From NCBI GenBank assembly GCA_003223635.1, contig QHVS01000005.1, forward strand, positions 1 through 35,922: a stretch of 35,922 nt of DNA, read 5' to 3'. Positions 3,065 through 8,030 of this stretch are shown in pieces (positions within the stretch are counted from its first letter, which is position 1; each line of letters begins with the position of its first letter). Below the pieces are notes generated by a model. It was not told the DNA's origin, made no database searches, and was given only the letters and a program-made list of their open reading frames with translations. Both the position numbers and the translations under genes were made by a program. Origin of the DNA: Acidobacteriota bacterium. GTDB taxonomy: Bacteria > Acidobacteriota > Thermoanaerobaculia > Gp7-AA8.

Positions 3065-3581
3065 GCGCAGCCACCACTTCGCCCGCAAACGTATCGACGC
3101 CTTCGAAGCGCAGGCCGCCGGCGATCTCCGACTGCAGCCGCAAGGGAATTCGTTTCAACGTCGGAATGACGCCGCCATGCTGCTTCCACAGCGCTTCCTT
3201 GGCGCACCAGAAGTGCAGGAGGCGATTGGGGATCGTGCAGCGCTCCATCACTTCGTTCTCATCGTCAGTGAGAAAGAAATGTGCGGCGGCCTCGCGGAAG
3301 TCGCGCATCGCTTCGACGTCGAGCCCCACCGGCTGAGATCCGACCGCCGCGCCGCCATAGGGGCCAGAGTGGGAGAAGGAGACGCAATCGCCGGCCGCTC
3401 CCTGCCGGCGCAGCTCTTTCTCCGCGATGCGGCTCAGCATCCACTGCGTCTGCCGTTTGGGCAGGCGAAATGAGCGCGCCACGGCCAGCTCCTCCTCGCT
3501 GAACCACGACTCCGCTCGATCGACGGCCGAAATGACCAACGCTCGGCCGCGCCAGCTCTCTGGGAGCGAAACAATTCTCAT
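3045..3581 (-). CDS. 4'-phosphopantetheinyl transferase superfamily protein
   Basis: VSFSHSGPYGGAAVG..VGLDVEAM and LLHFWCAKEALWK match Sfp-type motifs (SHS, G-D-x-E, W/F-x-x-KEAxxK). Overlaps the 3' end of the convergent TPR gene. Confidence 0.88.
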   Translation of the reverse strand: MRIVSLPESWRGRALVISAVDRAESWFSEEELAVARSFRLPKRQTQWMLSRIAEKELRRQGAAGDCVSFSHSGPYGGAAVGSQPVGLDVEAMRDFREAAAHFFLTDDENEVMERCTIPNRLLHFWCAKEALWKQHGGVIPTLKRIPLRLQSEIAGGLRFEGVDTFAGEVVAALTRPTS

Positions 3582-6500
3582 GGCTGCCCGGATGGGACGG
3601 CGGCGAGGAAATGCGAGTCACCGTCCGGTTCGACTACCGTGGCGAAAGGCGCGCCTGTGCCGGCGATAGCCGTCACGCGAAGCGTCATCGTCTCATCGAC
3701 GGCGGTCCCCAGCTCGCGCTCAATGTCATTCGTCCACCACACTTCTTCTTCCGGAACACCCGATTCGATCGTACGGCCGACGCGAACGTTGCCGCGGGTC
3801 CATGCGGAGATGCGGAACGTGGCCGGAATCCGGCCCAGGTTGATGACGCCGACGTTCATGCGGCTTCCCAGAGCTCGATGCGCAGGAATGCCGACGATGG
3901 TCGCCTCGGCGACCTCGCTTCCCGCGGTAATGGCGTCGCGCACCGTGAGTGGCGGCTCCAGCGATGCCCTCCCCTCGTGCGCGATGTCGCTGTTCTGCAC
4001 CAGGGCGACGGGCGCACGCCCTTCGCGATGCTCGATCCATAGCGTGCCGATCTCCTGCAATCCGAAATAGGTCCGCACGACATCCGGCCAGCGGATGGTC
4101 TGGCGCGGAGCGAGGGTCAGGTTCCGGTCGACGCTTCGCTGCCCGGCGATGAAACGAAGTGAGACGCTGATCGGATCGCGAAACGGATTGTGCAGCGTCA
4201 AATCGGAAATCCAGAACGAATTGCTCGCTCCAGCCGCGCTACCAATCAGCGGAAAGACCATCGACGCGCGCTCGGACGCGGCCAGCGCCTTCTCGTCCGG
4301 CAATTGAATGCGCCGCAGATACGACTGCAGCGGAGCCGGCCTGGCCCGCGGATCGCGGATCCACACCTGGACTCCGCGCACCGACCGGTAATAGCGATAG
4401 CAGTCGTCGAGATAGGCCGCCACGCCCTGCGCGCGAATGGCGTTCGGCACTCCGTCGAACTCGTCGAAGTTCTCCGGCGATGTTCGGATCACCAAACCCG
4501 GCCTGGCAGCCTGCAGAGCGGCGATGACCTCCGCCTGCAGGGCGCGCGGCGACATGATCGGCACCTGATAGAAGCGCGTCGGATTCGGACGGTCGGCGAA
4601 AAAGTAAAAAGCAGGCTGGTTGGAAAAGTCGAAGATCGAATCATTCGGTCGCGTGAACTCCCGGATCGTCTTCGACACCTGATCGATGCGGAATGCCACC
4701 TCCTCTGCGTACGGATCGCGCTGCACGTGAAGGACCCGCCGCTGGTAGTTGACCAGATCATCGATGCGAGCGTTGATCAGGTCGGGAACCCAGAACAGCA
4801 CGCCGAAAATCGGAATGGCCAGAAGGACAACCATCGATGCGAATGCGCGAGTCCCCGGATCGCCCTCCATCCAGATCTGCCGCAGTCGTCCGATGGCCAC
4901 GACGGCGAGAATCACCAGCATCGGTCCGATGAGAAATGCCGAGAAATACTGATGGCGAAACTCCGCGCGGCCGAACGCGGTCCGCTGCGTGATGGTGGCA
5001 AACACTGTGAGAACCAGGAGTGCACGATCGAGCGTGTCCATGCGCCGCCTCAGAGCGCGCTGGATCAGGTAGATCGCGGCGACAGCGATGGTGAGCGGGC
5101 TGAGGATCAGATGGAACTTCTCGAAGAGAACGAACTCGGCCAGCGTATGCAGATTCAGATTCTTCCGGAATGTGGAGACGAGGTCCGGAAACGGCAACGA
5201 CCAAACCGCATCGATGATGCGCGGGATGGTGACGAACGAGACCGTGGCGAAGTCCGGCAGAACGCCGCGGGCGATCAGATAGACGACAAACGGGGCGCAT
5301 CCCACGATCAGGCCCACGGTGAAGGTTAGTGCGGCGCGCATTGTGTGTAGACCGGCTTCAGCCGGTCGGCCGGCTAAAGCCGGGCCACACACAAGCCAAC
5401 AGAGAGCAATCGAGACAAGCGCCCCGGCAATGCTGTACAGGCCGATCTCATAGCTGAAGAATAGAGCGACCCCCGCAAAGAACCCGCTGAGAGCGACGGC
5501 GACGGTCGACCGTCGTTTCAGCCCGATCCACAGCAGCGCGACCACCGCCACTTGAAAAAACGTCCGATTGTTCTCCGTCGTCGTCCAGGCGGCTGTGGCC
5601 ACGGTGAGGAGCGCGAGCGGAATCGACTCGAAGATGGCCAGGCCGAGGTACCAGATGGCCACGGAGAGAAACGCGCCGAGAACCACGGTCCGCGTCATGG
5701 CCACATCGAGCGATCGGCCGAAGAGTTTCATGAGCCACGCGTCGAGCAGTCCGTCTTCCAGCATCCCATGCAGCGGAAAGACCCCTCGATACGGCGCCTT
5801 GCCTCTCAGATAATCCGACGCCGGTCCGATCGACTCACCGCGATGGAACAGATCGATCGTCAACAAGTGCGCCGTCGACGCGTAGCTGACCAGATAGATC
5901 AGCAGCGGGATCACCACGATCGCGGCCACGTTCCTGGCAACGCCCGGCGAGATCGGATTTCGCAAACCGAGAGCCAGCGCAGCGATGATCACCAGGACAG
6001 CGATCATCACCGCCGCAGAGTGCCTCGTCGGGACAACGAAGAGCGGTAGGACCGGCAGGATGACCATCGGCAACGCTGCGCTCACCACGCGACGGAACAC
6101 ATCCTCTGCGGAGATGCCGAAATTCGGCTCGGTCAGGTGCGCGATCAGAAACGTCACGACCCAGAAGAGCAGCAGAAAAATCGCGACGAAGACCGTCTCC
6201 AGGAAAAGCGTCGGGAAGTGGGCGATGCGACGGCCGGTCACCAGGTAACGGAACAGAAACCAGGAGATCGCTTCGCAGAACAGCAGCGCGTGGTAGGGAC
6301 TGAGCTCGCGTCGAAAGAACTGTCGCAGCCAGCGGCGCGTGTCGAAGAAGAGCAGACCGCGCGTAGCGCCGAACGCGATCGCCACCGGCAGAAGCAGGAT
6401 CCAACCAGCCTTGCCCGTCGTCAGATAGAACAGCGGCGAGAGAAGGAACGGCGCCGTGAAGAGAACTGCGACGGGCATCTGACGCTGCACTCGACGGCGA

Positions 6501-6769
6501 CCAAACCTGCGTTGCTCGCGTTCCAGGAGCTGTGCTCCGATGCGGCGAAACCAGATCGTCAGCGGCGGAACGGCCAGGAAGAAGATCGCGGCCCCGAGGT
6601 AATCCTTCAGCTTCGAGTAGCGCTCAATGGTCACCACTCCGATGGCTACGGGCGGGGTGGGCGGGAGGGAGCGGAAGAGGAGGGTGATGGAGAAAAAGAC
6701 GCCGGAAGCGAAGCAGAATGCGGCGATCCAAAGCAGCGCCGCGGTGATCCGCTCGTAAATTCGCGCCAT
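3578..6769 (-). CDS. Large polytopic membrane protein, GT-C/GT39-like N-terminal region with C-terminal beta-rich soluble domain
   Basis: Many TM segments; GPASDYLRGKAPYRGVFPLHGMLEDGL resembles the first-loop region of GT-C glycosyltransferases. The ORF opens at 6865, but MARIYERITAALLW (6769) avoids overlap with the upstream gene. ATGA overlap with the PPTase start at 3578-3581. Confidence 0.75.
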   Translation of the reverse strand: MARIYERITAALLWIAAFCFASGVFFSITLLFRSLPPTPPVAIGVVTIERYSKLKDYLGAAIFFLAVPPLTIWFRRIGAQLLEREQRRFGRRRVQRQMPVAVLFTAPFLLSPLFYLTTGKAGWILLLPVAIAFGATRGLLFFDTRRWLRQFFRRELSPYHALLFCEAISWFLFRYLVTGRRIAHFPTLFLETVFVAIFLLLFWVVTFLIAHLTEPNFGISAEDVFRRVVSAALPMVILPVLPLFVVPTRHSAAVMIAVLVIIAALALGLRNPISPGVARNVAAIVVIPLLIYLVSYASTAHLLTIDLFHRGESIGPASDYLRGKAPYRGVFPLHGMLEDGLLDAWLMKLFGRSLDVAMTRTVVLGAFLSVAIWYLGLAIFESIPLALLTVATAAWTTTENNRTFFQVAVVALLWIGLKRRSTVAVALSGFFAGVALFFSYEIGLYSIAGALVSIALCWLVCGPALAGRPAEAGLHTMRAALTFTVGLIVGCAPFVVYLIARGVLPDFATVSFVTIPRIIDAVWSLPFPDLVSTFRKNLNLHTLAEFVLFEKFHLILSPLTIAVAAIYLIQRALRRRMDTLDRALLVLTVFATITQRTAFGRAEFRHQYFSAFLIGPMLVILAVVAIGRLRQIWMEGDPGTRAFASMVVLLAIPIFGVLFWVPDLINARIDDLVNYQRRVLHVQRDPYAEEVAFRIDQVSKTIREFTRPNDSIFDFSNQPAFYFFADRPNPTRFYQVPIMSPRALQAEVIAALQAARPGLVIRTSPENFDEFDGVPNAIRAQGVAAYLDDCYRYYRSVRGVQVWIRDPRARPAPLQSYLRRIQLPDEKALAASERASMVFPLIGSAAGASNSFWISDLTLHNPFRDPISVSLRFIAGQRSVDRNLTLAPRQTIRWPDVVRTYFGLQEIGTLWIEHREGRAPVALVQNSDIAHEGRASLEPPLTVRDAITAGSEVAEATIVGIPAHRALGSRMNVGVINLGRIPATFRISAWTRGNVRVGRTIESGVPEEEVWWTNDIERELGTAVDETMTLRVTAIAGTGAPFATVVEPDGDSHFLAAVPSGQP
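5341..5394. repeat. 54-bp palindromic element in frame inside the membrane-protein gene (RPE-like)
   Basis: TTGTGTGTAGACCGGCTTCAGCCGG-TCGG-CCGGCTAAAGCCGGGCCACACACAA: 25-nt arms with 3 mismatches. 54 nt = 18 codons. Confidence 0.85.
6650..6669 (+). other. G-quadruplex-capable G-run
   Basis: GGGCGGGGTGGGCGGGAGGG: five G3+ tracts with 1-nt loops, on the non-coding (template) strand near the 5' end of the membrane-protein gene. Confidence 0.6.
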
Positions 6770-6782
6770 CGGCGCGAGTGTA

Positions 6783-8030
6783 TCAGCGGGCGCCGAGCAG
6801 CCCGTGGCGCGCGGCAATTCGATCCATCGCCGCGAGAAGCGCCGCGATGGTCGCGTCGTCGTCATGCGCCGACCAGCGCGCGATGATCCATTCGAACGGC
6901 GCCGCGCGTGAAGCCGCGCAGCGAAGCTGTTCGATGAACGCGTTCAACCTCCGCTCGTCGATCAGGTTCGCTCGCCGCGGGCGCGACGAAGCCAGCGCCA
7001 CCCGCAGCACGCGCAGCATCCACGGCTGCAGGGCCTCCCGCTGTCCCCTCACGGCCGGCCGACGGGGCCCGAACCCGAGAGGATCTGCCTCGATATCCTT
7101 CGACGCTTCAGGCCGCGGCGGCAGCGGGCGGCGATACGCGCTCTTCGGCGTGCGCGCGCCCTTCTTGCGGGCCGCAAGAATCGCAAAGTCCGACGGGATC
7201 GATCCACGGTCGATCAGGGCTCCCTCCAGCGAGCACAGAAGCTCGATCGCCCCGCGCTCGTGGGGATCGTCAAAGCGAAAGTTCTGGACGATGTCGTACA
7301 GGAGGTGCATCAGAATCGTTCCGCCGAGCTGCTTGACCTCCAGAACGTCAAAGCGCTGCCGGATCATGGGCATCAGATCCGATGCGCGAACGGCCTCGGA
7401 AGGGTCGTTGGCGATCATCTGGTCGATCGTCGGGCGCTCCCTCGCCTCGTAGACTCGATCTTCGAGCGCACCGTGGCGAAGCTGCGCCGGCAGACAGCGC
7501 AAAAGATCGTTGACGATCGCCAGGATCTCATCGCTGAACTGAAAGCGATTCGGTCCGATGTACTCGTTGACGATGAACGTCGCCTCCGGCTTCATGGCCC
7601 GCTCGACCTGCTCGAAAGCATGCTCGAGCTTTTCGACGTGATGAAGGATCGAGTGAGCGACGACGACGTCATACGCGCCGGCTTCGAGAGTGTCGCGATT
7701 GAGGTCGGCGACGGAATAGCGGATCTTCGGCCCCCCTCGCGCCCGCGCTCGCGCCACCGCCGCCTCGGCGAAGTCTAGGGCGTCGATGCGGCTGACGAAC
7801 GACCACTCCGACACCGTTCGCTCCAGCCAACCTTCGCCACAGCCGAGAACTAGAACGCGCAGGTCCTGACCAACGAAATACCGATGCGCCCAGGAGGAGA
7901 GCCAGTCGCGCGCCGGGTCGCCGGTAGCGCGCTCGTTCAGATGCATCAGGACGGCGGTGGACGCCATCCAGCTCACCTCGCCGAGCCTGTGCGTGTAGTC
8001 GGCGGATCCCCAGAGGCGCGCTGCGTCCAT
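6783..8030 (-). CDS. Class I SAM-dependent methyltransferase with C-terminal extension
   Basis: LRVLVLGCGEGWLERTVSEWS...DALDFAEAAVARAR...YDVVVAHSILHHVEKLEHAFEQVERAMKP. About 150 aa of Arg-rich C-terminal extension after the fold. Confidence 0.85.
   Translation of the reverse strand: MDAARLWGSADYTHRLGEVSWMASTAVLMHLNERATGDPARDWLSSWAHRYFVGQDLRVLVLGCGEGWLERTVSEWSFVSRIDALDFAEAAVARARARGGPKIRYSVADLNRDTLEAGAYDVVVAHSILHHVEKLEHAFEQVERAMKPEATFIVNEYIGPNRFQFSDEILAIVNDLLRCLPAQLRHGALEDRVYEARERPTIDQMIANDPSEAVRASDLMPMIRQRFDVLEVKQLGGTILMHLLYDIVQNFRFDDPHERGAIELLCSLEGALIDRGSIPSDFAILAARKKGARTPKSAYRRPLPPRPEASKDIEADPLGFGPRRPAVRGQREALQPWMLRVLRVALASSRPRRANLIDERRLNAFIEQLRCAASRAAPFEWIIARWSAHDDDATIAALLAAMDRIAARHGLLGAR

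Follow-up and report, generated by a model that had tools for sequence, protein, structure and literature searches.

The window analysed here, a stretch of 35,922 bp from a draft acidobacterial genome (GCA_003223635.1, contig QHVS01000005.1), raises the question of how a long palindrome comes to lie in frame inside a gene for a membrane protein. A preliminary description had noted the palindrome and likened it in concept to the palindromic elements of Rickettsia (RPEs). REPs are short dispersed palindromes that are thought to be moved by RAYT transposases, and the palindrome is very probably a copy from a REP family, arranged as a REPIN-like doublet, that would have been mobilised by a RAYT, landed in frame in a loop of the membrane protein and been kept where it does little harm.

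The palindrome and its host gene

Recalculation of the 54-bp palindrome at positions 5341-5394 returned it exactly as first described, with 25-nt arms, mismatches at arm positions 9, 11 and 19, and a 4-nt centre; a second palindrome with 25-nt arms, a 4-nt centre and 3 mismatches was found neither in the window nor in 20 shuffles. RNA folding also upheld the claim that two of the three mismatches become G-U pairs on the coding (minus) strand. The fold has an energy of -43.7 kcal/mol on this strand versus -35.2 kcal/mol on the plus strand, with a shuffle mean of approximately -17.5 kcal/mol, and was matched by no shuffle. The conserved element is shorter than the palindrome as reported, covering 50 bp (5343-5392, GTGTG..CACAC), and the outer TT/AA lies outside the consensus of the family described below. 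The features of the locus are as follows:

3578-6865, minus strand: host gene for a multi-spanning membrane protein of 1095 aa, from the ORF; no named Pfam or NCBIfam family
5341-5394, no strand assigned: palindrome as first reported (doublet plus TT/AA); arms and mismatches recomputed, RNA folded
5342-5392, minus strand: host codons 492-508, peptide VCGPALAGRPAEAGLHT, entirely REP-coded, from translation and orthologue alignment
5343-5392, no strand assigned: head-out (HH) REP doublet, REPIN-like, 50 bp; 33 like doublets in two genomes and BLAST copies genome-wide
5343-5367, plus strand: REP unit 1, TTC loop, GTGTGTAG-A-CCGGCTTCAGCCGG-T-C, head reading GTAG; 1 mismatch to the family consensus GTGTGNGGRCCGGCTTYAGCCGGYC
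5368-5392, minus strand: REP unit 2, TTT loop, inverted, GTGTGTGG-C-CCGGCTTTAGCCGG-C-C, head reading GTGG; 1 mismatch to the family consensus

The palindrome is in frame within the membrane-protein ORF, as had been proposed, and the coding score of this frame is high on both sides of it (40 and 46 bits, over up to 300 nt each). Orthologues of the host protein in relatives exhibit 46-64% identity, and neither the palindrome nor its residues are kept in them, as would be expected of the acquired element that was originally envisaged. The accompanying idea of an extra 18-residue insert, however, was not borne out: 17 REP-coded residues are present versus approximately 12 unrelated loop residues in the nearest orthologues, a net gain of approximately 5 residues. 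Given its in-frame position within a gene, the palindrome would be expected to be translated, yielding a loop of 17 residues in place of the membrane protein's original one. An AlphaFold2 model of the host protein had a mean pLDDT of only 36 (three sequences), which is too low for use.

A dispersed family of REP doublets

The palindrome had been suspected to recur elsewhere, and it is indeed not single-copy: approximately 39 copies are present in its own genome, a draft of 3.73 Mb in 395 contigs that is 93% complete. The closest orthologues that bear a name belong to uncultured acidobacteria, and the organism was assigned accordingly. BLAST returned 30 places in this genome, or 42 with a looser cut, and CCGGCTNNAGCCGG cores number 56 versus 3 for a reversed control; 39 copies, with element lengths of 46-53 bp, were fetched and read individually. 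Among 60 sampled relatives, in a comparison of draft genomes beyond the genus, the family is present in three members of the same taxonomic family, being abundant in G014 and less so in G006 and G009, and is absent from the other 57.

The family unit, GTGTGNGG-R-CCGGCTTYAGCCGG-Y-C, is 25 bp long and is composed of a head, a stem and a 2-nt variable loop. Of 102 units drawn from two genomes, 95 have either G-C or A-T as the outer stem pair R..Y, a two-sided compensating change of the kind expected in the conserved stem-loop of a REP, and a 25-bp unit at approximately 39 loci agrees with the short (20-40 bp) palindrome in many dispersed copies by which REPs are recognised. In the commonest arrangement, two units lie with their heads outward and their cores 0 or 4-9 bp apart, and two inverted REPs are thus a common unit, as in REPINs. 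Every clean HH doublet (33 of 33; 19 from the window's own genome, G000, and 14 from G014) joins one TTC-loop unit to one TTT-loop unit. Compared with the unpaired GTAG or GT(A/G)G head of the GTAG REP super-family, the consensus head is GTGTGNGG; the window copy has GTAG in one unit and GTGG in the other, some copies have GTGTAGG or GTGGAGG, and GTAG is the head of sister REPs at RAYTs.

Position -4 of the family head (N) is nearly random, whereas its neighbours are almost fixed (L056-L089, L138-L170), and no correlation was found between this free base and 12 flanking positions. The free base is identical between the arms of a doublet in 7 of 33 cases, with 8.7 expected by chance, which indicates that the individual short hairpins are kept and not the long hairpin. 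A conserved long RNA hairpin was rejected on this basis. The same result bears on whether the palindrome serves its host gene as an RNA or DNA signal, for instance as an mRNA hairpin by which translation is slowed or the mRNA stabilised. The hairpin is very stable and is better on the coding strand than on the other, but orthologues do without it, pairing between the arms is not maintained, and the repeat is also present in unrelated genes and at intergenic sites; furthermore, no Rfam family was matched at threshold, two sub-threshold matches to miRNA precursors being taken as chance hairpin matches. Such a role is therefore very unlikely.

Copies inside genes and at gene ends

Coding calls were based on codon statistics and homology. 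In the window's own genome, 10 of 39 copies lie in frame within genes by a strict test (both flanks at least 15 bits in one open frame) and 13 of 39 by a lenient test, which adds three copies near N-termini that are backed by known domains or orthologues. The strict test is passed by 8 of 33 copies in G014, and the in-gene share of the sister genus is similar. The hosts include dnaX, bshC, a type-4 uracil-DNA glycosylase, a HisC-like aminotransferase, a BNR/sortilin-type protein, an M28 peptidase and several membrane proteins. In PDB searches, the copies in bshC, the aminotransferase and the uracil-DNA glycosylase are N-terminal to the parts that align with solved structures. Copies in genes are no further from the consensus than those elsewhere (0.81 versus 1.07 mismatches per unit), and no gene broken by a frameshift from a REP copy was found among the copies read. 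As a separate observation, the bshC linker of G004 and G017 (L206, L207) contains a shared GC-rich stretch, CGGCGGCCCGCCGGCTGGACCGCCGCCGGC, which resembles a further palindromic insertion at this position.

Four further copies form C-terminal tails, one of them in sixA (NCBIfam) and the others in genes whose names were read from sequence ends only:

L064 3173-3225, L085 1595-1626, L188 207-238 and L064 1523-1590: C-terminal-tail copies (apparent uvrA, proS, ribE; sixA)

The remaining copies adjoin gene ends, often 10 nt or less from the stop codon. With 26 of 39 copies not inside genes, the family is predominantly extragenic and near 3' ends, as REPs are, though its in-gene share is high.

The 10-13 in-frame copies in unrelated genes recall the in-frame insertions of RPEs, and the palindrome could in principle be an RPE-like selfish element adapted to proteins, with its frames kept open by selection and its spread independent of RAYTs. 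A quarter to a third of the copies lie within genes in frame, internal stops are absent from four of the six frames of the 50-bp doublet (window copy), and two frames are used repeatedly, all of which would suit such an element. About two-thirds of the copies, however, are outside genes or at gene ends; the REP head, the stem, the loop heterodimers and the occurrence of sister REPs beside RAYTs are as expected of a REP; and sequence and length are unlike those of RPEs (105-146 bp, PMC2229807). We therefore regard an RPE-like element as unlikely.

Replacement of host loops

Orthologues without the element were found for all four hosts tested. The stretch that is wholly REP-coded comprises 17 residues in the window protein, 17 in L056, 15 in L069 and 17 in L079, and the orthologues have at the same place a median of 11, 9, 12.5 and 8 unrelated residues, respectively. 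In these four hosts the REP thus stands in for a variable loop of approximately 8-12 residues and does not add 17-18 residues. A clean insertion predicts that orthologues have no residues at the site, whereas 8-12.5 are seen, indicating that host bases were lost with or after insertion. The L069 case is weak because the length of the bshC linker varies (9-19 residues), and in the family of the window protein the loop is much shorter in a few distant orthologues. The core lengths of in-frame doublets are 46, 50 and 52, none of which is a multiple of three.

The loss of host residues may reflect either the mode of entry or later selection for short loops. We tentatively propose, as a possibility that we rate below even, that REP doublets enter genes by replacement, a variable loop of approximately 8-12 residues being swapped out through cutting, deletion and repair coupled to movement; loops of 15-17 residues from one family would in this way have arisen repeatedly in unrelated proteins.

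The lost loop residues and the core lengths also speak for a product of recombination or repair, in which template switching or gap repair, with no transposase involved, would have placed a copy of an existing REP in the loop, as does the failure to find a cognate RAYT in the window's own genome. Such an origin is nevertheless highly improbable, given that the dispersal of many copies, their sharp head-to-head ends and the sister REPs that flank RAYTs are better explained by transposition.

Candidate transposases

The window's own genome contains two Y1_Tnp genes, on contigs C69 and C307. The C69 gene (L059 7131-7707; G000:C69:10133-10707) matches NCBIfam NF047646, which makes it a RAYT, and inverted copies of a second, different REP family, GTGGGGCGCCGGCGCCCTCGCCGGCG, flank it; this second family is present at 29 places in this genome (16 exact). 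The C307 gene (L089 5056-6150) encodes a longer Y1 transposase bounded by 23-bp terminal inverted repeats, GGGGTCAGGCCTTTCCTTCGTAC, and is of the TIR-flanked type, like that described for Acidobacteria (PMC3733652). The RAYT gene of G009 (L131 1258-1827) has doublets of ATGTAGGGCCGGCTCTCCAGCCGGCC on both sides, a sister of the window family with a GTAG head, and the RAYT genes of G014 and G006 (L130, L135) have GTGTAGCGGCGGGCTTTAGCCCGCCG repeats at their ends, which are likewise sister REPs. The sister REPs at these three RAYTs resemble the window family in head and stem, and the RAYTs of G014 and G006 are a possible source of its mobilisation. The Y1_Tnp genes of G012 and G018 (L101, L105, L120), which are flanked by TAGCCCCCGGCTTCAGCCGGGGG repeats, were discounted as the cognate transposase because TAGCCCCCGGCTTCAGCCGGGGG possesses the family core but another head.

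A RAYT flanked by exactly the window family (GTGTGNGGRCCGGCTTYAGCCGG) was found in none of the four carrier genomes, all of which are drafts, and so the RAYT step is one that we infer. The cognate RAYT with the same REP that characterises a REPIN or REPtron is likewise missing from the window's own genome, where the incomplete draft means that its absence is not final. This result and the head GTGTGNGG, which is not strictly GTAG or GTGG, count against the REP/RAYT reading.

Proposed history of the window copy

If the palindrome is a REP doublet, each of its units (TTC-loop and TTT-loop) could form its own hairpin in single-stranded DNA, and a RAYT, as a Y1 HUH single-strand transposase, would probably have mobilised the doublet. 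The window copy would have landed in the loop between two transmembrane segments, where the host gene would have survived because the net change in length left the frame intact and no stop codon lies in the frame that is used; the repeat would now code for a 17-residue loop in place of the ancestral one. Most landings in genes are presumably lost, and those that keep the frame in tolerant loops would survive and be translated, with a near-neutral effect on the protein. Under purifying selection, copies would persist where they do little harm, which is to say beside stop codons and in frame in variable loops, linkers and protein ends.

REPs are generally regarded as extragenic, whereas here at least 10 in-frame copies are present in one genome, with orthologues that display the REP-free state. 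These copies open two questions to testing: whether a REP extends a protein or takes the place of part of it, and how RAYT-linked repeats choose their sites outside Proteobacteria.

Comparison with known systems

The likeness to RPEs that was first proposed holds in part: a dispersed palindrome lies in frame in a gene whose orthologues lack it, but the closest family is REP/REPIN and not RPE. RPEs are also in-frame palindromes in unrelated genes, expected to be translated and probably tolerated in loops or linkers (PMC2229807). They are, however, Rickettsia-specific and 105-146 bp long, versus 46-53 bp for the present element, which has REP anatomy and belongs to an acidobacterium, a member of another phylum. 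Some short RPEs (RPE-4, RPE-6) have been classed as CGTC REPs (PMC3733652).

REPINs (Bertels and Rainey 2011, PMC3116915) resemble the window family in that two inverted REPs form one probable mobile unit and singlets are present too, and differ in that the window family has a spacer of 0-9 bp and no cognate RAYT was found for it. In-gene copies make up 10-13 of 39 in the window family, versus 14 of 1067 REP 16-mers that overlap genes in P. fluorescens SBW25 (PMC3116915).

GTAG REPs (Di Nocera et al. 2013, PMC3733652) are likewise short palindromes headed at one end, which form head-out dimers, often of two different units, lie beside stop codons and include some in-frame copies, among them copies in DNA replication and repair genes; the window family differs in its head, GTGTGNGG, with a free base. 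The GTAG families of that study come from Proteobacteria, Cyanobacteria, Chloroflexi and the PVC group, and for Acidobacteria it reports only TIR-flanked transposases. In-frame REPs, including dimers that code for 20-30 aa, were already described there. Given that in-frame REPs and RPEs have both been published, the window element is not an element of a new kind but represents a new REP family, in which an unusually large share of the copies lies in genes. Novel here are the family, the phylum it comes from, this large share and the pattern of replacement.
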